A stretch of 63,794 bases of DNA from Ruminococcus sp. (GTDB lineage: Bacteria; Bacillota; Clostridia; Lachnospirales; Lachnospiraceae): positions 1 through 63,794 of the forward strand of contig JAMPIB010000011.1 of NCBI GenBank assembly GCA_023663085.1, read 5' to 3'. The notes beneath the pieces were generated by a model, which saw only the letters and a program-made list of their open reading frames with translations, was not told where the DNA came from and did no database searches. Numbering within the stretch: the first letter of the stretch is position 1; each line of letters opens with the position of its first letter. Positions 161-62,258 of the stretch are shown here, piece after piece. A program made the position numbers and the translations under genes.

Positions 161-2476
161 TTAAAAAAATCCATCCAGTTCCTTCCATTCAATCTTAACC
201 CTTGCATAATGCCGGAGCAGTTCCTCATATTCCGCCTCTGAAATCGGCTCCTCGTTACTATCATAATAGTCGTATTGCATCTCTTGATCAACCATATGCC
301 CATTGTATCCGAATGTTTCCGTCATCTTGGCCCATGCGGCATAAGGCGCCAGAGTGTAATACCCATAGTCTCCATATCCGTATACCGCTCGGGATATTTC
401 CAACACATTTCCCCGGCACAATGCCCAATCCTGACCTCCCAAATACTCCCCTCCATACCAATATATAATAGTCGTAATTTCTCCGCTCTGACATGTAAAA
501 GCTGTAAACAGCCATCCATCACTGTCAGGATTTTCGGTATTTCTCATACCAATCAACAGTTCACAGATTCCCTCACCTGACAAATCCACCAGACTATAGC
601 ATAACTGCCGATTCTCCTTATATTCGTTCTCCTTCTCGCATAATACATTTTCAAAATATAGTCCCGCGTATTTACCTGATGTGTGCCAGTTTCCATCATC
701 CTTTTCTTTTTCCGTTTCTTCCTCTTCTAACGTTCCATTTTCCCACAGCCGCTCATACTCTTCCAACACATCTAAGTAGCAGACTGCCGGCGGCGCATCC
801 TCCGCTGTTCCCTGCCAAATAACCCGTTTTCCTTCTTCCTCCGCACCGACATAGAAAACTTTCTCATAAAACACGATATCTCCCCGCACATATTCCGCGG
901 CGTAATCATCCGATTCATAATAATAATCCGCTGCCGGACAGCGGAGAATCTCTGTGACGTTTTTCTTTGTTTCCGCCGTCCATGGATAGGCTTTTTTCTC
1001 CATGATAAGACCGGACTGCTCCACAGCCTTTCTAAGCAGTTCATCCGGGCGGTCGTCCGCCGCTTTTTCCACCCAATCCGCATAATTATCCGCATTCCCA
1101 TCCTCTACGTCTTCAGCATATAAACCGCCATCCTGCCACCACCCCTCTGGAAAGGGACTCCATTCCGAATACAGAGCCGGATATTCACTGTCAAAGTAGT
1201 TATAATCAGTAAAGGAAACCTGTTTCGGCTGGAAATACTCTTCGTCTATTTTTAAACTGTCCTCTATATCAATATACGCTCCATATCTTTCAGCTTCTCC
1301 CTGCTCCGGATTTCTTGCCACATATACGCTGTATCTCCCGTTTTGAAAATCGTTTACTTTGTTTACAAGCGGAAAGTCCCAATGAAAATTATAAGATTCC
1401 TTTTTCTCCACCGTCACCTGTCCTGCCCGATATCCCAAATGGATTCTGACGCCGCCTTTCCATGAGGAAGAACCTTGGTAAATGGAGTCCGAAAGTAAGA
1501 CGGTTCCATCCGGCGCCAGAAGTTCGCTGTAAATATTCTTGGTATTTTTCGCTAAAATTGTATAAATCCCGCTATTTGTAGGGGTAAGAATGTAAGTGGC
1601 TCCGGAATCATTATCCGGATGATGAGGCAGCATTGATACATAAGCAAAAATTTCCTCTTTCCCGTCACCCGTAAGGTCGTAAAACGCCACCTGCTCCAAC
1701 TCATAGGGCAGATCGATTTCCTCCAGCTCTACCTCCCGCCCCTCTGCCAAATCTTTTGCAATCCCTATCAGTCTTTTTTCCAATTTAATGCAAAATTCTC
1801 CTTCATCCGGAAATACCGCCATAGTGTTATATTCTTCCTCTATTTCACATTCATCGCTTTCACGCAGTAAAATTTCTCCATAATTATCAAAGTCCGAGAC
1901 ATGATAGGATACCCATTCCCCCTCTTTCTCCATTCTGGCGGTAAAATACCGTTCCTCATAGCGCGTGCTGCGGCTTAACGAAGTGCGGCTTAATAAAGTT
2001 TTGTCCTCATTAAACCGGTAAGTAACACTGTACTCGTCTATCGGGTATTCCTCACCTCCGATTCCCTTGTAAATACACTGGTCAAAATCGGCGATTACGG
2101 TATTCTCGTCTATCCGCCTCCAGCTGCCCCTGTCCACATTCCGGTGCCCGTAATGAACCACCTGACCATCGGGAGAAAAACATGTGGTATAAGTTTGCAG
2201 CCACATTTCCAATGCAGAGTCACTCGTATCCGTTCTCGTTTTCCATGTTCCTACAATCCAATCCTGCTGCGACTCTTCTTGTTCTGTTTCCGCTTTTTCC
2301 TCCAAAGCCGCAGTTTCCTCCGGCGTCTCCGGTTTCTCCTCTGAATCTACTGAATCTACGATTATTTCCTCATTTTCCGTTATATCCGCCGAAGCTGCTC
2401 CTGTTTCTTTGCATCCACTCAAAAGCAGAGCCGCAATCCCTGCCGCCAGCCAGCCTGCCAGTCTTTTCTTTCTCAT
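161..2476 (-). CDS. Large acidic lipoprotein of unknown function
   Basis: The ATG at 2476 is preferred over the upstream TTG at 2503 because GGGTGA precedes it at good spacing and it yields a clean lipoprotein signal: basic start MRKKR, hydrophobic stretch and lipobox LLSGC. An acidic Glu/Thr-rich linker follows the lipidated cysteine, then a possible lipocalin-like segment beginning WIVGTWKTRTD. Two stretches resemble calcium-binding FG-GAP or VCBS-type blades (DLTGDGKEEIFAYV and DLSGEGICELLIGM). The mature protein (about 770 residues) should be anchored outside the membrane. A minus-strand TATAAT at about 2540 may be its -10 box. No enzyme motif is recognised; a substrate-binding or surface-sensing role is only a guess. 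It is transcribed in the same direction as ispD but separated from it by about 95 bases. Confidence 0.8.
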   Translation of the reverse strand: MRKKRLAGWLAAGIAALLLSGCKETGAASADITENEEIIVDSVDSEEKPETPEETAALEEKAETEQEESQQDWIVGTWKTRTDTSDSALEMWLQTYTTCFSPDGQVVHYGHRNVDRGSWRRIDENTVIADFDQCIYKGIGGEEYPIDEYSVTYRFNEDKTLLSRTSLSRSTRYEERYFTARMEKEGEWVSYHVSDFDNYGEILLRESDECEIEEEYNTMAVFPDEGEFCIKLEKRLIGIAKDLAEGREVELEEIDLPYELEQVAFYDLTGDGKEEIFAYVSMLPHHPDNDSGATYILTPTNSGIYTILAKNTKNIYSELLAPDGTVLLSDSIYQGSSSWKGGVRIHLGYRAGQVTVEKKESYNFHWDFPLVNKVNDFQNGRYSVYVARNPEQGEAERYGAYIDIEDSLKIDEEYFQPKQVSFTDYNYFDSEYPALYSEWSPFPEGWWQDGGLYAEDVEDGNADNYADWVEKAADDRPDELLRKAVEQSGLIMEKKAYPWTAETKKNVTEILRCPAADYYYESDDYAAEYVRGDIVFYEKVFYVGAEEEGKRVIWQGTAEDAPPAVCYLDVLEEYERLWENGTLEEEETEKEKDDGNWHTSGKYAGLYFENVLCEKENEYKENRQLCYSLVDLSGEGICELLIGMRNTENPDSDGWLFTAFTCQSGEITTIIYWYGGEYLGGQDWALCRGNVLEISRAVYGYGDYGYYTLAPYAAWAKMTETFGYNGHMVDQEMQYDYYDSNEEPISEAEYEELLRHYARVKIEWKELDGFF

Positions 2477-54508: not shown

Positions 54509-55210
54509 ATGTGCAATGTAAATATTCTACACTATATAGAAGGCGCTAAACAGGCAAAGGGACTGACCGTCATTATAGACGTTTTCAGGGCTTTTTCACT
54601 GGAATGTTATTTGTATGATATGGGAGTAAAACAGATACGGCCTGTCGGCACGATAGAAGAAGCATTTTCTCTTAAGACACGCATTGCGGACAGTGTTCTC
54701 GTAGGAGAGCGGCAGGGTAAAAAATGCGAGGGATTTGACTACGGCAATTCACCGTCTTCTATTTTGAAAACGGACGTGGCCGGAAAGACTATCATCCACA
54801 CTACCAGCGCCGGTACGCAGGGAATCGTCAATGCGGTCTGTGCAGAGGAGATCATCACCGGAAGTCTGGTCAACGCAAGGGCTGTGGCCGAATATATTAT
54901 TTCCAGGCAGCCGCAGACTGTCTCTCTTGTGTGCATGGGTAACGGCGGCGTCAGATTTGCACCGGAGGATGCGCTGTGCGCGGAATATATCAAAAGTATT
55001 CTGGAAGGCCGGGAACTTTCGGACATGGAACAGAGAGTAAACGATCTGAAAAATAATGGCGGTGAGCATTTCTTTGATAAATCCAGACAAAGCATCTTTC
55101 CGGAGGCTGACTTTTATATGTGCATAGAATATGACAAGTTTCCGTTTGTGATCACGATCGACAGGGACGAAACGGGATTTGTGGCGAATTTGCGGAGGGA
55201 AGGTATATGA
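54509..55210 (+). CDS. ComB-like 2-phosphosulfolactate phosphatase family protein
   Basis: A 233-residue protein with the ComB family blocks VIIDVFRAFSLECYLYDMG, VLVGERQGKKCEGFDYGNSP, HTTSAGTQGIVNA and VSLVCMGNGG. Archaeal ComB works in coenzyme M synthesis; in Firmicutes the role of family members is unclear. The active-site acidic residues appear kept. RBS AAAAGGAAA is moderate. It converges with the YoeB-like toxin gene (14-base gap). Confidence 0.85.
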   Translation: MCNVNILHYIEGAKQAKGLTVIIDVFRAFSLECYLYDMGVKQIRPVGTIEEAFSLKTRIADSVLVGERQGKKCEGFDYGNSPSSILKTDVAGKTIIHTTSAGTQGIVNAVCAEEIITGSLVNARAVAEYIISRQPQTVSLVCMGNGGVRFAPEDALCAEYIKSILEGRELSDMEQRVNDLKNNGGEHFFDKSRQSIFPEADFYMCIEYDKFPFVITIDRDETGFVANLRREGI

Positions 55211-55223
55211 TTCCCCAATACTT

Positions 55224-55484
55224 TTAATTCTCATAATGCCCCCTACAGGAAACAATCTCTACCACATCATCACGAATCCTATACACCAGCCTATTCACAT
55301 CATCAATTCTACGGCTCCAAAATCCACTCATATCTCCTTTCAATGGTTCTGGTTTTCCAATACCGTCAAAGTTTCCCCGCTCAATATCTTTCAGCAACAT
55401 ATTAATACGCTTTAACGTCTTTTTATCCTGCACCTGCCAGTAAGTGTAATCCTCCCAAGCCTCGTCAAACCAAATTTTTTTCAT
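55224..55484 (-). CDS. Txe/YoeB-family toxin (mRNA interferase)
   Basis: An 86-residue toxin starting KKIWFDEAWEDYTYWQVQDKK and ending SCRGHYEN, with the conserved Arg in SRRIDDVNRLVYRI and the C-terminal His-Tyr pair typical of YoeB. YoeB enzymes cut mRNA in the ribosomal A site. The start overlaps the antitoxin stop by one base (TAATG). Confidence 0.93.
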   Translation of the reverse strand: MKKIWFDEAWEDYTYWQVQDKKTLKRINMLLKDIERGNFDGIGKPEPLKGDMSGFWSRRIDDVNRLVYRIRDDVVEIVSCRGHYEN

Positions 55485-55741
55485 TAGTCTACCTCAATAA
55501 TATCGTGTTCTACACCCTTTCCGTCATTAAGGGCTTTCACACCTCTACGCAAGTGCTCCATATTACTTTCAGAATAAAACGGATCAATAGATACTTCAAA
55601 CGGAATTCGCTTTTCTCTTGTCATTTTTTTTGCAAATATAGTAATTGCCGTAGTCATATTCATTCCAAGTTCCTGGCAAGTCTGTTCCATACTCTTTTTT
55701 AATTCTTCATCCATACGGATATTTACCAATGTTTGTGCCAT
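55484..55741 (-). CDS. RelB/DinJ-family antitoxin
   Basis: An 85-residue antitoxin starting AQTLVNIRMDEELKKSMEQTCQELGMNMTTAITIFAKKM, a ribbon-helix-helix of the RelB/DinJ type, followed by an acidic C-terminal arm. ATG 55741 has AAGGAGC 9 bases upstream. It normally binds and silences the toxin and represses its own promoter. A DinJ-type antitoxin with a YoeB-type toxin is a mixed pairing compared with E. coli YefM-YoeB. Confidence 0.9.
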   Translation of the reverse strand: MAQTLVNIRMDEELKKSMEQTCQELGMNMTTAITIFAKKMTREKRIPFEVSIDPFYSESNMEHLRRGVKALNDGKGVEHDIIEVD

Positions 55742-55826
55742 AATAATGCTCCTTTTTTTAATTTCTAACTCCATATTACCATGTGATAAAGACAAGTGCA
55801 ATGCGTTGTCTTTATATTTTGCATTC

Positions 55827-56287
55827 CTACGCCAAACTCATAACATATATCTGACAAGGGTTCCATTCATCCCACAATGTGGGAAATACTTCAAATTCCT
55901 GAAAACCAAGCGAAAGATAAAACCTGTTCGTCCTGTCATATTCCTCGTATTTTCCCATTTGCACTGTTTTTACCTGCATAAAAGAATAGCCGCTTTCATA
56001 TGCCGTCTGCTTCGCTCTACGAAATAATTCCCGTCCGATACCATGTCGGTGAAATTCCTGTAAAACGCCCATGACATACAATTCTACCGTAGCATTTCCG
56101 GTCTCTTCAAATACAGGAATCCTACCGGCCTATCCTGCTCGTATGCACAAAAGAAAATCTTATCGCGGCTCTCTGCAATATACTCTTCCCTTGCCTCCGG
56201 TATACCGAACCAATCGGAAAGGCTTTCAAGGATATGCCGTGTTACCGCCTGTTTTTCCAAATTATCTGTCAGTTGTCTTATTTCCAT
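55827..56287 (-). pseudogene. GNAT acetyltransferase broken by a single-base frameshift
   Basis: The first half (ATG 56287, GGGAGG upstream; EIRQLTDNLEKQAVTRHILESL to GFLYLK) ends early at 56084. In the next frame the fold continues as ETGNATVELYVMGVLQEFHRHGIGRELF to position 55827. The acetyl-CoA loop HRHGIGRELF is intact. Loss of one base near 56105-56107 after TTGAA explains the break. It could be a real pseudogene or a sequencing error. Confidence 0.8.
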
Positions 56288-56391
56288 ATTTACCTCCCAT
56301 AAATTCCACTTTGCGAAATCCCGAAATCCCACAACAAGCAAGCTTGCCAAGAAGAATGCCCATATCTGGGCATTCTCCATCTGCAAGTCTT

Positions 56392-57213
56392 TTAACCGAT
56401 CTGCTTCATGATCTCGTCTTCCAGTTCCGCAACAGAAATCTTTTCCTGCCAGGTTAAAATGCTATCCATAATTTCGATGATCTTTGGAAGATGAACAATA
56501 GAACCTCCCCTGCGCAGAATGCGCTTTACCATATCTGTCAGCAGATGATAGGATATCTTTTCCGGGACAACACCCTCGATTAAAATCGGATATTTTATTT
56601 TCAAATTATCGACCAGTCCCCATATTAAGTCCGGATTAATGATTTCGTAATACTTTTCCCGGACGCACCCGCCAAACTTTTCAATGATATCATGCAGGGT
56701 TTCTTGACCAATACAGTCAATCTTCTCTGAATAAAGTATTTTATGGTAAGCCATAACCCTCAATTCCCGCTCCCCCAGTTTCACATCATCCCTGATTCGG
56801 AAGACAGGTAACAGAAATCCTTCATGAGAAAGTTTCAGCCGAAGCTCTCTGATCTCGTCCACATATTGGTTATCCATAAAAAGCGGTGTTATCTCTATTC
56901 CGAATATCAGTTCCAACGGCTCTAAGGAATTTCTCAAATTCTCTCCTATCACATTCTGTATTTCACTGTCATCTTTGCCAGCCATATGATACCCGTTTAC
57001 TCCCAGCAGATAATCCGTGCTGACTTCCAGCATACGCGCAATATCGGGCAACATCGCTGTATCGGGAAGACTCACACCCCGCTCCCATTTACTTAAAGCC
57101 TGCGGCGTTATGCCAAGTCTGTTAGCCAGTTCCTCCTGCGTCATGTTCTTATTCTGGCGGCATATGGATAACCTGCTGCCAATCTGCTGTAGTTCATTGA
57201 CTTTACCTATCAT
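56392..57213 (-). CDS. XRE-type HTH protein fused to an FlhA-cytoplasmic-domain-like region
   Basis: Residues 11-70 are a Cro/CI-type helix-turn-helix (RLSICRQNKNMTQEELANRL, GITPQALSKWERG, STDYLLGVNG). Residues about 96-165 (EPLELIFGIEITPLF, IRELRLKLSHEGFLLP, VFRIRDD) resemble subdomain D1 of FlhA, and 172-250 (ETLHDIIEKFGGCVREKY, LVDNLKIKYPILIEGVVP, ILRRGGSIVHLPKIIEIM) resemble the region of FlhA that contains the conserved VVP-type turn. The middle D2 subdomain and all membrane helices are missing. No flagellar gene is nearby. DNA binding is likely; what the FlhA-like part senses is unknown. RBS GAGAGG precedes the ATG. Confidence 0.8.
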   Translation of the reverse strand: MIGKVNELQQIGSRLSICRQNKNMTQEELANRLGITPQALSKWERGVSLPDTAMLPDIARMLEVSTDYLLGVNGYHMAGKDDSEIQNVIGENLRNSLEPLELIFGIEITPLFMDNQYVDEIRELRLKLSHEGFLLPVFRIRDDVKLGERELRVMAYHKILYSEKIDCIGQETLHDIIEKFGGCVREKYYEIINPDLIWGLVDNLKIKYPILIEGVVPEKISYHLLTDMVKRILRRGGSIVHLPKIIEIMDSILTWQEKISVAELEDEIMKQIG

Positions 57214-57363
57214 TTGCTATTCCTCTCTTTCCATTTCATTTTGGTTACGGCCGTTCCGGTAAGGATATGATAACATGAAAGAAACGGAGGGAAAAACAAC
57301 TGGTGGTTCAGTAGCAGGTAAACAGGGGAAAAATAATTATATCAGGACAACACCATGTAATTC

Positions 57364-57891
57364 TCAATTCCCGTTTACAACATTCCACTCTTCTTTGAAA
57401 AGGCCATAAAAATAGATGTCCGCCCAATTCCCATCATTGTCTTTTGTCTGGCTTCGTTGGATTCCTTCCAACCGCATACCAAGTTTTTTCATCATGCTAA
57501 CTGACTTTACACTATCAATGGTTTCAGCGAATATTTTGTGTGCATCCAGTTCATTGAAAGCATAATCAATCACAGCTTTACAGGATTCATATGCATAACC
57601 CTGCCGCCAGAAATCTTTATTGAAAATCCAACCCATTTCGTATACGCTTTTATCATACATATTAGAGTTGAACAGAATATATCCAATCATCTTGCCGCTG
57701 TCTTTATGAACTGCGGCGACAGCACCTCTTTTTCCAATACAAAACTCCGACAGGAATTGTGATGTTTTTTCACGGTCATATGCCGGTTCGCAATTCTTCA
57801 TCACCTCAGCATCGCCAAAAATATCATGTAAATCTTTAACATCATCTATTGTATAGTCCCGGATGAGCATTCTTTGCGTTTCAATATGCAT
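57364..57891 (-). CDS. GNAT acetyltransferase, RimJ/RimL type
   Basis: A 175-residue protein starting HIETQRMLIRDYTIDDVKDL, with GWIFNKDFWRQGYAYESCKAVIDYAF and HKIFAETIDSVKSVSMMKKLGMRLEGIQR, the pattern of RimJ/RimL-like N-acetyltransferases. ATG 57891 has GGAGG upstream and gives normal length. The substrate could be ribosomal or another protein N-terminus, or a small amine. Confidence 0.85.
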   Translation of the reverse strand: MHIETQRMLIRDYTIDDVKDLHDIFGDAEVMKNCEPAYDREKTSQFLSEFCIGKRGAVAAVHKDSGKMIGYILFNSNMYDKSVYEMGWIFNKDFWRQGYAYESCKAVIDYAFNELDAHKIFAETIDSVKSVSMMKKLGMRLEGIQRSQTKDNDGNWADIYFYGLFKEEWNVVNGN

Positions 57892-57941
57892 CTGTATTAT
57901 TCCTCCAAATTCCCGATTGCCAATACAAGTACAACCTGTTC

Positions 57942-58394
57942 CTATGAACAATGTTTCCGATAAACTCTGGAAGGCTCGCCCTCCATATCGTCCATCATCT
58001 GATAAAATTCGTATCCATACTTTTCATATAACCCGATATGACCGGTGGATATAAAGATATCATGCACGCCCTCGGTTTTAGCCAGTTTCTCAATCTCCGC
58101 CAACAGCCTTCCGGCATAGTGATGCCCCCTGTATTGCGGAAATGTATACACAAATCCTATCCACGGAGTCAGTTCTGTCGGCTGTATATCGTCTTTTTCC
58201 GCATAAGTACAGAAGGAAACAAGTTCGTCTCCGTTTACCAGCATCATTACTCTGGAAGTTTCACCCACAGCCTTTTTAAACTGCTTTTCACTTAACAATT
58301 CATACAAAAACTGTCCGGCGCTCCAGTCGCTCTTCTTGATCTGTTCCAGCCAATACTCCGGACGCCCGCAATTCTCATAATCTATCACCTGCAT
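57942..58394 (-). CDS. GNAT acetyltransferase
   Basis: A 150-residue GNAT with IGFVYTFPQYRGHHYAGRLLAEIEKLA as the acetyl-CoA binding loop and HIGLYEKYGYEFYQMMDD as the C-terminal motif. Function is not predictable. It lies 3 bases downstream of tag and is probably cotranscribed with it. Confidence 0.85.
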   Translation of the reverse strand: MQVIDYENCGRPEYWLEQIKKSDWSAGQFLYELLSEKQFKKAVGETSRVMMLVNGDELVSFCTYAEKDDIQPTELTPWIGFVYTFPQYRGHHYAGRLLAEIEKLAKTEGVHDIFISTGHIGLYEKYGYEFYQMMDDMEGEPSRVYRKHCS

Positions 58395-58397
58395 CTG

Positions 58398-58973
58398 TCA
58401 ATCCTCCTGAATTCTTTTATAGCAGTCGCACCCTTTTTCATGTGCATTCAAGACCCCGATTGCCTGCAAATAGGAATATATGATGGTAGAACCTACGAAT
58501 TTCATGCCCCGTTTTTTTAAATCCTTGGAAATCTGATCGGACAGCGGCGAGGTTGTCCGCAGGTCAAAACTCTCGCAGACCACTTTTCTGTCCGTAAATC
58601 CCCAGATATAATGATCGAAAGAGCCAAATTCTTTCTGAATCTGCATAAAAATACGGCTGTTCGTCACGCTGGCATTTATTTTCAGCCTGTTGCGGATGAT
58701 GTTCGGGTCATTCAGTAACTGCCTGCATTTCTCTTCATCATATCTGCTTACTTTTTCCACATCAAAATCATCAAAAGCCTGTCGGAAACTTTCCCGTTTA
58801 TTCAAGACACACTCCCAGGACAAGCCTGCCTGAAAGCCTTCAAGGATCAGCAGTTCAAACAATTCCTTATCTTTGTGCTGCGGAACGCCCCATTCTTCAT
58901 CATGATACCGGATATAGCGCGGATTTTTCATATTCACCCATGAACAGCGGTTATGTATGGTCTGTTTGTTCAT
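58398..58973 (-). CDS. tag: DNA-3-methyladenine glycosylase I
   Basis: Tag removes 3-methyladenine from alkylated DNA. The 191-residue protein has CSWVNMKNPRYIRYHDEEWGVP, FELLILEGFQAGLSWECVLNKRESFR with the catalytic Glu, and zinc ligands at both ends (CSW and HEKGCDCYK). GGGAGG sits 9 bases before ATG 58973. Confidence 0.93.
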   Translation of the reverse strand: MNKQTIHNRCSWVNMKNPRYIRYHDEEWGVPQHKDKELFELLILEGFQAGLSWECVLNKRESFRQAFDDFDVEKVSRYDEEKCRQLLNDPNIIRNRLKINASVTNSRIFMQIQKEFGSFDHYIWGFTDRKVVCESFDLRTTSPLSDQISKDLKKRGMKFVGSTIIYSYLQAIGVLNAHEKGCDCYKRIQED

Positions 58974-59011
58974 AACATGCAACCTCCCGAATCTCTGTCT
59001 CCAATAAGGGA

Positions 59012-59050
59012 GAAAAATCTTTAAATTTCTTTTGAATTTAAAGATTTTTC
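59012..59050. terminator. Perfect 16-bp AT-rich hairpin, probable bidirectional terminator
   Basis: GAAAAATCTTTAAATT (59012-59027) and AATTTAAAGATTTTTC (59035-59050) pair perfectly with a 7-base loop. It lies 18 bases after the RelE/ParE-type toxin stop, in the gap before tag. Confidence 0.6.
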
Positions 59051-59067
59051 TTCAGCGGTTTATATTC

Positions 59068-59382
59068 TTATGTTTTCAAAATATTTCGCCAATCAGCCTT
59101 ATTATATAAAATCCTGATTATATACACTATATCTTGTTTTATATTATAATAATAAAAAATATTATAGTTATCAAAGTATGTCATGCGTAAGCCTATACTC
59201 TTTAGCAATTCATCATTTACAAGTGGACGCTCCAGTGGATACTCTGCAAGCTTATTTGCTATATTCAAAATACCATCTGAAATTCTCTGGGCCGCCTGTG
59301 GATTACAAAGTTTAACAAAAATATAGTATTCTATATCCAGCAAATCATACTCCGCCGGTTCAGTAAATACTACCTTCGCCAC
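59068..59382 (-). CDS. RelE/ParE-superfamily toxin
   Basis: A 104-residue protein with the ParE/RelE start AKVVFTEPAEYDLLDIEYYIF, central LAEYPLERPLVNDELLKSIGLRM and C-terminal FYYYNIKQDIVYIIRILYNKADW. The start codon is GTG (59382) within the end of the antitoxin gene. Whether it acts on mRNA (RelE-like) or gyrase (ParE-like) cannot be told; the conserved ILYNKADW end leans to ParE. Confidence 0.88.
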   Translation of the reverse strand: MAKVVFTEPAEYDLLDIEYYIFVKLCNPQAAQRISDGILNIANKLAEYPLERPLVNDELLKSIGLRMTYFDNYNIFYYYNIKQDIVYIIRILYNKADWRNILKT

Positions 59383-59539
59383 GCTCTTTTCTCCTGTTTT
59401 CCATTTTTTCTCTTACTTCTTCAATCGTACTGGTCCGGCCATCCTGCATTGCCTTATAGCCTTCCCCAATCAATCTGTACAATTCCAACTTTGCGATATC
59501 TGATTTTTCCGCCATCATCTCCGACTTAGCCGCTATCAT
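59360..59539 (-). CDS. Small antitoxin of the RelE/ParE-type pair (59 aa)
   Basis: An open frame from ATG 59539 reads MIAAKSEMMAEKSDIAKLEL, continues YRLIGEGYKAMQDGRTSTIE and ends with a charged EVREKMENRRKERGEGSIY. AAGGA lies 10 bases upstream. Its 3' end overlaps the toxin start by 23 bases, the usual antitoxin-first order. The sequence ...AMQDGR...EEVREKM matches the short antitoxins commonly found before such toxins in Clostridia. Confidence 0.75.
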   Translation of the reverse strand: MIAAKSEMMAEKSDIAKLELYRLIGEGYKAMQDGRTSTIEEVREKMENRRKERGEGSIY

Positions 59540-59742
59540 ACACCCACATCCTTCCTTATATGTTCAAAGTATAACATATATATCAACTTTCAACAACAGA
59601 TTCTCTATTTGATTTTCATATACGTATATTATGTGCAATGGATAATAAATCATTTATCAGTTGTTTTTCTCCTCTCCATATGCTATTCTACAATAGAAAA
59701 CTGCATCTGGTTGCAAAAATCTATTCCAGGAGAACTCACAAT

Positions 59743-59847
59743 ATGGAAATTAAGCGGAATAAAGTCAAAAATCCAGGTAAATTGGAAGACCTGCTCAATA
59801 TTCTCTCCTCCGCTGTCGGATCACTGACTAACCCCGGCAAAACTTGA
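59743..59847 (+). pseudogene. Fragment of an AAA-DUF4143 ATPase
   Basis: A 34-codon piece reads EIKRNKVKNPGKLEDLLNI then LSSAVGSLTNPGKT and stops. This matches the internal region of DUF4143-containing ATPases (the KLEDLLNILSSAVGSLTNP block), with nothing of the rest of the protein on this strand. The remaining 59540-59742 stretch is AT-rich and holds no other recognisable gene; upstream AGGAG could be chance. Confidence 0.6.
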
Positions 59848-59882
59848 ATATTTTGAACTATTGCAAATCAGAAACAGAGATT

Positions 59883-60842
59883 TCAATCCTTCAGACAGCC
59901 AATTGGAACAATATAAACCCCGTCCTGTCTCCGGTAGGCGTAATCGCCGATACCTATAAGCACCATCAAAAAAGCCGGTGCCTTCATTTTGGTTGTATCA
60001 ATTTTATTGGCCAGCTTTTTCAGGTTTTCCGCACCTTCTTCAATTAATTTATCTCCGCCCAGTTTGATTTCGGCCAATCCATATACACCATTCCGCAAGT
60101 GAATGACAGCGTCACATTCAAGGTCTGTTTTATCCCGAAAATGATACACGCTGCCATGCAGTACATCTGCAAAAACTCTTAAGTCCCGGATACACATTGT
60201 TTCAAAAAGCAGTCCAAAAGTGTTCAAATCTGCAATTAAATCCTGCGGTCCAAGACCCAGGGCCGCAGCCGCAATAGATGGATCAATAAAGTAGCGGGTA
60301 TTGGAAGTCCGAATAGCGGTTTTTGAACGCAGGTTGGGGTTCCACGCCTCCATTTCCTCAATCACAAATATCTTTTTTAAAGCATTGATATAAGAATAAA
60401 CCGTATCCGGGTCAAAAGTTTCCGCCTCATTTGTGGCAATATCCGCACAAATCAACGCATTTGCCGCCTGTGTTCCCTGATTACGTGCATAAGAGCGCAT
60501 CAGCCGTTTTACACGTTCATGATTTCTGGAAACACCATCTACGCGGGAAATATCCGATTTTACAACAGCATCATAATAATCAAATGCCTGTTCCAGTGCA
60601 ATTTCACCTTCCAAATCTGTGGCTCTGGGCCAGCCGCCGCGGCACACCAGAAATGCCAGACGATTCAGATTAAGGGGATTTTCACCTTCAATTTGTTCAG
60701 GTGCGCCAAAAAGTTCTTTCAGACTTACTTCTCCAGTTGAATCCAATGATTCATATAAACTCATCGGCCGCATTAACAGCCACGAAAACCGGCCTGTTCC
60801 CGTATGATGGATATGCTCATAAGAGGCGGGAACTGCTGACCC
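59883..60842 (-). pseudogene. N-terminally truncated AAA-DUF4143 ATPase
   Basis: The frame is recognisable from GSAVPASYEHIHHTGTGRFSW (60842 downward) through MRPMSLYESLDSTGEVSLKELF, FLVCRGGWPRA, YFIDPSIAAAALGL and the DUF4143 nuclease-like end (YHFRDKTDLECDAVIHL, YGLAEIKLGG). The N-terminal AAA domain with Walker A and B is missing; upstream the frame is open to a TAG at 60935 but the residues no longer match. Such ATPases are about 430 residues. An internal ATG at 60773 could still give 296 residues, but without ATPase function. Confidence 0.8.
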
Positions 60843-60893
60843 CTGTCTGTGGTTATACTTATAGTATATCCACCTTTTCAGGAAACTACAACA

Positions 60894-60957
60894 TTTTTCG
60901 GTGATTTGGCTGCAAACTTTTCGGTGATTTGGCTAAAAATTTTTCGGCAGTTTGGCA
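60894..60957. repeat. Three tandem 23-bp repeats
   Basis: TTTTTCGGTGATTTGGCT at 60894-60911, CTTTTCGGTGATTTGGCT at 60917-60934 and TTTTTCGGCAGTTTGGCA at 60940-60957 recur with a strict 23-base period. The third is diverged. They lie between the MFS gene stop and the truncated ATPase. Confidence 0.75.
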
Positions 60958-60959
60958 TT

Positions 60960-62258
60960 TTATTCGTCGTACCGATATTTTTTCAACTTTCTACCCGTAA
61001 TAATGCAGATCAGGCTCCCGAACACACCGAGCAAAAACATCATAAGCGCCGCCCCGGAGCCTTTACCAGTCCCGAAAAGCGTTGTCAAAACCGGCTGCTC
61101 CCTATATACATCCATAAACGGCTCGCATACATTATCTACCAGAAAACCGCCCAGAAACAACCCGATTGGTATGGTAAAAAACTGCAGGGTATTACGGCAG
61201 GCATAAACACGTCCCTGCAATTCCACCGGAATGACTGTCCTCAAGATCACGTCCAGATTAGCGTTCATGATCGGCACCACGACCCAGCCCATGATCTGCC
61301 CCAGACACCATAGCGCCGGTTCTCTGGAAAAAGCCAGCAGAAAGTGTTCGCTGCTTAATGAAAACAGCATCGTAAGGTAAATGACCTTTACCCTGTCTTT
61401 CGGTTTGGGCAGGACGGAAACCAACAGGCTGCCGGCGATCATCGCCACTCCCGCGCAGGAGGTAACGATTCCCAGAACGGACGAGCCGCCCCGCGGATTA
61501 GGAATCACATAACCGGGCAGGGCAGCATCAAAAGCCGATGCCGTCAGATTAACGCCGGACATAAACAAAATCAGCGTCATGATAAGCGGAGTCTCTTTTA
61601 GAAATACCAGTCCTTCTTTGGCCAGACTGAGCACGCTCTCTTCTTTTTCACACGGATTCTGCGGAATCCTGATAAAAAAAAGCAGGGCCGTGAAAGCAAC
61701 CGCAAAACTTCCGAGATCGACCGCTATGACAAGATTCAGTCCCGCCAGCGAATACAGGGCAGTTGCAATTAAAGGATTCAATACCGTGATCAATGACCCG
61801 GATAAAGACCGCAGTCCGCTTGTTCTCTGGAAATCCTTCTTTGGAATGATAAGCGTCATCGCCACTTCGGAGGCCGGCTGCTGTACGGTATTCATTAAAC
61901 CGGAAACCGCATTTAGAACGTACAGATGCCATACTGCCAACTGTTTCGTCCGAAACAGCACAAAGACAATAACGGTGCACACCGCCGCAAATAAATCACA
62001 GCCGAGCATGGTCTTCTTTTTATCAAAACGGTCTGTCAACGCCCCCGCGAAAATGCTCATCAGCACATAGGGCGCATAGGAACATATGGCCAGCGCCGCC
62101 GTACTTAAAGATGAACCTGTCTTTTCATAAAGCCATAATGTCAGGGCAAATGCCGTAATACTGCTGCCCAATTGAGAAACACTCTGGGTACTCCAGAGAA
62201 TCAAAAAATCCTTTAATTCCGATATTTCCGCCGTTTTATTTTTCTTTATTTTTTTCAT
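60960..62258 (-). CDS. MFS exporter of the DHA3 (Mef-like) type
   Basis: A 432-residue protein with twelve predicted helices. FLILWSTQSVSQLGSSITAFAL, the motif A-like GALTDRFDKKKTML, and PVELQGRVYACRNTLQFFTIPIG are typical of the MFS_3/DHA3 group that includes macrolide efflux proteins. The substrate is not known. A candidate leader peptide and alternative hairpins lie upstream (62317-62403), which fits drug-dependent control. RBS AAAAAGGAG precedes the start. Confidence 0.88.
   Translation of the reverse strand: MKKIKKNKTAEISELKDFLILWSTQSVSQLGSSITAFALTLWLYEKTGSSLSTAALAICSYAPYVLMSIFAGALTDRFDKKKTMLGCDLFAAVCTVIVFVLFRTKQLAVWHLYVLNAVSGLMNTVQQPASEVAMTLIIPKKDFQRTSGLRSLSGSLITVLNPLIATALYSLAGLNLVIAVDLGSFAVAFTALLFFIRIPQNPCEKEESVLSLAKEGLVFLKETPLIMTLILFMSGVNLTASAFDAALPGYVIPNPRGGSSVLGIVTSCAGVAMIAGSLLVSVLPKPKDRVKVIYLTMLFSLSSEHFLLAFSREPALWCLGQIMGWVVVPIMNANLDVILRTVIPVELQGRVYACRNTLQFFTIPIGLFLGGFLVDNVCEPFMDVYREQPVLTTLFGTGKGSGAALMMFLLGVFGSLICIITGRKLKKYRYDE

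Follow-up and report, generated by a model that had tools for sequence, protein, structure and literature searches.

A candidate self-regulating XRE-type transcription factor with a C-terminal half derived from the flagellar export gate protein FlhA

Contig JAMPIB010000011.1 of Ruminococcus sp., analyzed here over positions 1 to 63,794 (the window), carries on its minus strand a gene for a 273-aa protein that, by its sequence matches and predicted structure, is a soluble XRE-type transcription factor with an FlhA-derived C-terminal half consisting of the linker, D1 and D3. The gene is preceded by a conserved putative operator, and autoregulation is the best-supported reading of its role at the level of DNA, as judged from sequence. 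That this factor represses its own gene and uses its FlhA-derived half to sense the flagellar export system is a further step, for which we consider the chances about even. The features of the locus are as follows.

56392..57213, minus: XRE-FlhA regulator gene, 273 aa (open reading frame (ORF) with ATG start; profile and structure matches)
57001..57186, minus: Cro/C1-type helix-turn-helix (HTH) domain, residues 10-71
56923..56976, minus: equivalent of the FlhA pre-D1 linker, a helix, residues 80-97 approximately (structural alignment and sequence)
56719..56922, minus: FlhA D1-like domain, residues 98-165 (borders approximate)
56395..56700, minus: FlhA D3-like domain, residues 172-273, following D1 directly, without D2
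57222-57228, minus: putative ribosome-binding site AGAGAGG (sequence match only)
57290..57323, minus: conserved putative operator that overlaps the -35 and reads GTTTACCTGCTACTGAACCACCAGTTGTTTTTCC in the window (position weight matrix (PWM) and model match)
57267..57272, minus: putative -10 TATCAT, 17 bases past the operator (sequence match only)

An earlier reading made from the letters alone (the sequence-only reading) had described the gene as an XRE domain fused to FlhA-like D1 and D3 blocks, and profile searches, set beforehand as a possible refutation, recovered both parts. The protein matched HTH_3 (E 8.4e-16) and, in two stretches, FHIPEP (PF00771; E 6.8e-11, 41.8 bits against a curated cut-off of 29.1) in Pfam, as well as TIGR01398 FlhA in NCBIfam (E 2.2e-11), where its 42.7 bits fall far below the model cut-off of 772 because the regulator holds only part of FlhA. 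The C-terminal 197 aa alone retrieved B. subtilis FlhA (3mix) from the PDB at E 5.7e-8, and the predicted structure, whose comparison with FlhA D1/D3 was the other refutation set beforehand, has the FlhA fold over the linker, D1 and D3, with 187 residues aligned across 236 residues (348..583) of Salmonella FlhA (3a5i_B), a range that ends at the D3/D4 border. D2 had likewise been called absent, and the D2 stretch of the genome's own FlhA is left unpaired in sequence alignment with the regulator, in agreement with the structure. The window regulator thus has the cytosolic D1 and D3 of FlhA/SctV and lacks D2 and D4; another member, L045, retains part of D2 and gives an unbroken FHIPEP match (E 7.4e-29). 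No membrane helix was found, as claimed (highest 19-residue Kyte-Doolittle mean 0.92), and the FHIPEP matches of the regulators begin at profile position 310 of 657 or later, indicating that the N-terminal transmembrane domain is absent. To the earlier description we add that the module also retains the FlhA linker segment ahead of D1 (model residues 80-97 approximately), which reads ENVTSLLQVDPIELEFG in the genome's own FlhA and ENLRNSLEPLELIFG in the regulator.

Compared with the cytosolic domain of FlhA (FHIPEP, PF00771), the linker, D1 and D3 thus have the same fold and order, and the G of the GYXLI region and the RDN and IRD-type blocks are recognizable, whereas the regulator lacks the membrane domain, D2 and D4, has an HTH and is encoded outside flagellar loci. 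With XRE/Cro-C1 regulators that have a C-terminal sensing domain (ImmR, SinR type) it shares an HTH at the N terminus, which has 42% identity with the DNA-binding domain of ImmR, and an inverted-repeat site over its own promoter, but it differs in having part of a secretion gate as its C-terminal half. Foreign sensing domains have been seen on XRE regulators before; to our knowledge none has an export-gate domain in that position, and we know of no described function for an HTH-FlhA-like fusion. None of the matches obtained from four family libraries was to a model of an HTH-FHIPEP fusion, nor was such a fusion described in the titles and abstract starts listed by a full-text literature search, most subscription journals being outside its scope.

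The regulators form a family of their own. In an unrooted tree of 30 regulators and 42 FlhA proteins, for which we used the 177 alignment columns occupied in regulators and FlhA alike, a single branch with support 100/100 separates the two, which fits one origin; this branch is long (1.94 changes per column), and the tree carries a long-branch warning, including L043 with L045 and L095 with FlhA, with inner placements unsure. Pairwise dN/dS was 0.12-0.16 in three of five pairs, the other two, including window/L096, being saturated, and the family is, judging from these codon comparisons, under purifying selection.

To follow its distribution, we searched 250 genomes of the window's family with the C-terminal part, 392 genomes of the order with a profile, 397 genomes of the family with a full-length profile (six best candidates scored per genome), and a collection of 84,980 species with two conserved stretches of one branch, a search that gave 24 loci and would mostly miss members of the window's type. 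Intact regulators were found in 30 genomes in all: 16 (G000, G016, G096, G164, G166, G173, G184, G206, G512, G552, G630, G631, G637, G651, G682 and G713) and 14 more from the 84,980-species collection (L078-L088, L092, L093, L096), with L076, L077, L089, L090, L091 and L095 belonging to genomes already counted. Damaged, shortened or contig-edge copies occur in G045 (= L094), where D1 has an in-frame deletion, and in G174, G407, G695, L097, L098 and L099. The order-wide search placed regulators or remnants in at least 5 of 392 genomes, all in family f1 (Lachnospiraceae), a count that leaves out two shorter frames outside f1 (G468, 334 aa; G350, 366 aa). Carriers are mostly labelled Lachnospiraceae (Butyrivibrio, Roseburia, Parablautia, Anaerosporobacter faecicola and others), with a few records labelled more vaguely as Clostridia, Clostridiales or Eubacteriaceae. 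The L079 record (JAMPHU010000084.1) is labelled Gastranaerophilales, but its regulator groups with those of Lachnospiraceae, and it is probably a misnamed bin. Within the window's genus, the G713 member groups with L037 and not with the window's, and G060 has none, so that the distribution is patchy. G605 has an intact copy plus a split close relative of the window gene (L140:1593-1745 on contig C18 and L154:3699-6089 on contig C70), in which the HTH half stops after ERGVS and the other half resumes at about the same point on the other contig, where it immediately follows a gene for a large serine recombinase (Recombinase and Resolvase by Pfam); a mobile element was probably inserted into the HTH codons of this copy.

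In the genomes checked, the regulator occurs together with flagellar genes. Beyond what had been noted before, the window's own genome encodes a 686-aa FlhA (contig 44) and has eight flagellin matches, all on contigs other than the regulator's. FlhA was detected at E 1e-40 or better in 15 of 17 carriers of a regulator or remnant, against 209 of the 397 family genomes (P 0.0019), and in 13 of the 14 carriers of an intact regulator in this sample (P 0.0015); among near-complete genomes the figures were 12/13 carriers against 164/320 (P 0.0019). Both FlhA-less carriers, G637 (intact regulator) and G174 (broken), hold flagellins, so that all 17 carriers have flagellar genes, 15 by FlhA and two by flagellin, and three FlhA-less control genomes had no flagellin. 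FlhA is also present in 23 of the 24 genomes of the 84,980-species search (fragmented in G602, G604 and G620), and G618, from the same search, lacks it in its assembly and holds flagellins; in G016 it is in pieces. The idea that broken copies mark flagella-less genomes was dropped, as G174, G618 and G637, without FlhA in their assemblies, all hold flagellins.

A second addition to the sequence-only reading is that the gene has its own conserved putative operator. The family upstream consensus, GTTGAG-N7-TAAAC-N5-GTTGTTTTACA followed at 17 bases by TATAAT, contains an inverted repeat with an AAC-N5-GTT core and an extra GTTG half-site, lying over the -35 of the gene's own promoter. The window operator scored 24.0 bits with a leave-one-out PWM, on a scale where sequences shuffled base by base (300 shuffles in the upstream test, 5 of the genome stretches) reached up to 13.6 bits and true sites 9.4-34.7, the consensus being derived from the same upstream regions that the PWM test scored. 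The PWM was built without L043, L085, L076, L124, L042, which duplicates L095, and L081, which is nearly identical to L080, and the 24-row model alignment additionally without L045 and L078; L042 and L081 were also left out of a count of 29 rows, and L078 out of one of 25. The model matched the window at 57266-57323 with E 4.4e-6, this site being among its own 24. Exact copies of the core AACN5GTTGTTTTAC number 15 in the 30 regulator genomes (7 for the reversed pattern): 11 at intact regulators, one at the HTH remnant of G605, two within longer ORFs and one in a ribosomal-protein cluster. In 40 genomes, of which 30 carry a regulator and 10 do not, the model gave 26 strong sites (E 2.1e-4 or better), 24 of them at intact regulators, one at the G605 remnant and one in control G127; the remaining listed matches were 0.002 or weaker, and the best among the other nine controls was 0.004. 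The 24 training sites make the own-promoter matches partly circular, and the lack of second sites is the informative part. As strong operators stand almost solely at regulator genes, autoregulation is the best-supported DNA-level function. The G127 site (L176, G127:C3:1582661-1582719, minus; E 8.9e-6) comprises a strong operator and promoter with no regulator behind them and an lgt-like ORF, recognized by eye, about 200 bases on; it is either left over from a regulator gene since lost or a genuine second target.

What the FlhA-derived half might do is suggested by the surfaces that it keeps. The FlhA linker is able to contact both D1 and D3 on the adjacent subunit, which is important for a stable ring in solution (PMC10965912). 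In SsaV, salt bridges of the D3-D3 and D3-D1 kind hold the ring together, along with a linker peptide that sits in a pocket of D1/D3 (PMC8635156); chaperones dock at the D1/D2 dimple (PMC10965912) and a FliJ homologue in the D4 cleft (PMC9431611). With linker, D1 and D3 kept and D2 and D4 gone, the regulator holds the subunit-contact parts without the cargo-docking parts. We therefore picture a dimer or small oligomer that would bind its own inverted repeat and repress its own gene, with the FlhA-derived half providing both oligomerization and sensing. The sensed partner may be a flagellar export component, either FlhA subunits or a protein that touches the linker/D1/D3 surfaces, and its binding would release the regulator from DNA and reset its level, possibly acting also at targets with weaker sites. 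An export-gate partner is proposed because of the descent from FlhA and the co-occurrence with flagellar genes, and the same co-occurrence strengthens what had been a fair inference of the earlier reading, that the fold was reused as a sensor or protein-binding module. A narrower version, in which the regulator reads export-gate assembly by pairing its linker-D1-D3 with FlhA, such that free FlhA would strip it from DNA and rings would not, is tentative and rather doubtful. If the partner is right, the regulator would resemble the flagellar checkpoint factors FlgM, FliT and FliW in reporting export state to expression at the protein level. Those factors are not known to be DNA-binding proteins derived from the gate itself; a gate-reading regulator, if real, would be a checkpoint made from a copy of the inspected part. 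With this protein the cell may be able to monitor what state its flagellar exporter is in. The protein raises the question of whether a bacterium can sense its own export gate via a DNA-binding copy, and its conserved operator offers a ready-made reporter. The family indicates that the FlhA cytosolic fold can leave the membrane, lose two docking domains and still be selected, in cells with flagellar genes.

Several observations count against the overall reading of an autoregulated factor that senses the export system. The D3 arginines equivalent to those of the D3-D1 ring salt bridges are, by eye, absent in the window protein, and in 16 of 21 aligned members the sequence ends ahead of the final D3 helix or does not include it. 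This makes it doubtful that the protein forms a ring of the canonical FlhA type or inserts cleanly into such a ring, and favors a dimer or small oligomer on linker/D1/D3 surfaces. The flagellar link was weaker in the first sample (9/10 carriers with FlhA against 128/250, P 0.012), the co-occurrence statistics ignore shared ancestry, and the flagellin search was limited to FlhA-less carriers and a few controls. Strong operators were lacking in six of the 30 regulator genomes (G016, G173, G512, G599, G606 and G713), and, with 136 candidates scored per genome, none of the 30 had a second one except for the split copy of G605. Around flhA and the eight flagellin matches of the window's genome (129 kb, genes unannotated) the best site reached 10.5 bits, and across 192.8 kb of this genome, window included, no other site exceeded 14.3 bits, the score of one site in the window. 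A flagellar regulon, looked for through this operator search, was not found and is unsupported by it, the search covering strong sites of the self-promoter type.

The near confinement of strong operators to the regulator's own gene would also fit a decoy or brake, in which the FlhA-like domain, by binding FlhA or one of its clients, would reduce or adjust export, and the HTH would do no more than keep the amount of the protein constant. Occurrence with flagellar genes and the lack of a recurrent neighbor gene speak for this, but D2 and D4, the docking sites for chaperones and the FliJ homologue, are gone and weak target sites may exist, and we think it unlikely. Quite unlikely, in our view, is that D1-D3 merely makes dimers, with the flagellar link lost and the protein sensing something else or nothing: the ring-type residues partly lost (by eye), the long branch of 1.94 changes per column and conserved residues specific to the regulators, such as the PEKISY block, are consistent with this, but all 17 carriers have FlhA or flagellin, against FlhA in 209 of 397 genomes. 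Extremely improbable, taken together, are chance resemblance and a dead gene. The former is ruled out by the profile, PDB and fold matches, which exceed the noise by far; for the latter the broken or reduced relatives G045, G174, G407, G695, L097 and L098 could be cited, against which stand the low dN/dS and conserved promoter.

The 11 ORFs flanking the gene on both sides (54509-62258) correspond to 2-phosphosulfolactate phosphatase, YoeB, RelB, GNATs, methyladenine glycosylase, ParE, DUF4143 and MFS, with one unmatched; none is a flagellar gene, as had been claimed, and own-genome searches gave no further FHIPEP or flagellin match on the regulator's contig, of which this interval was scanned gene by gene. 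None of the regulator loci examined was located in a flagellar cluster. Among 33 loci, whose flanks differ in length, the commonest neighbor families are ABC ATPase-like (7 loci, by eye) and MATE transporters (6 loci; L037, Pfam), and a toxin-antitoxin or operon partner was rejected, as no conserved toxin gene or other family recurs in more than 7 loci. A viral origin was rejected, as patterns from one family branch matched no relative in viral contigs, as were a plasmid origin, with no match of the C-terminal part in plasmids, and a phage origin, with none of 102 phage records covering 80% of the query and the five matches listed falling in residues 3-134, on the HTH side.

Close to the regulator lie a YoeB/RelB pair (55224-55801) and a ParE-like gene (59068-59382), on the minus strand. 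A YoeB-type gene is near the regulator in two loci, the window and L044, where it stands immediately upstream of a shortened regulator; the two are 51% identical, and as only these two loci have it, YoeB is unsupported as a partner. The distant relatives L039 and L042 flank opposite sides of a mutS-like/mutS/mutL cluster, a neighborhood rejected as a functional link because these are housekeeping genes. Directly behind the regulator, a GNAT acetyltransferase-like gene (55827-56386, minus) is in two frames, 56084-56386 without a Pfam match and 55827-56081 matching Acetyltransf_7, pointing to a frameshift or an assembly error.
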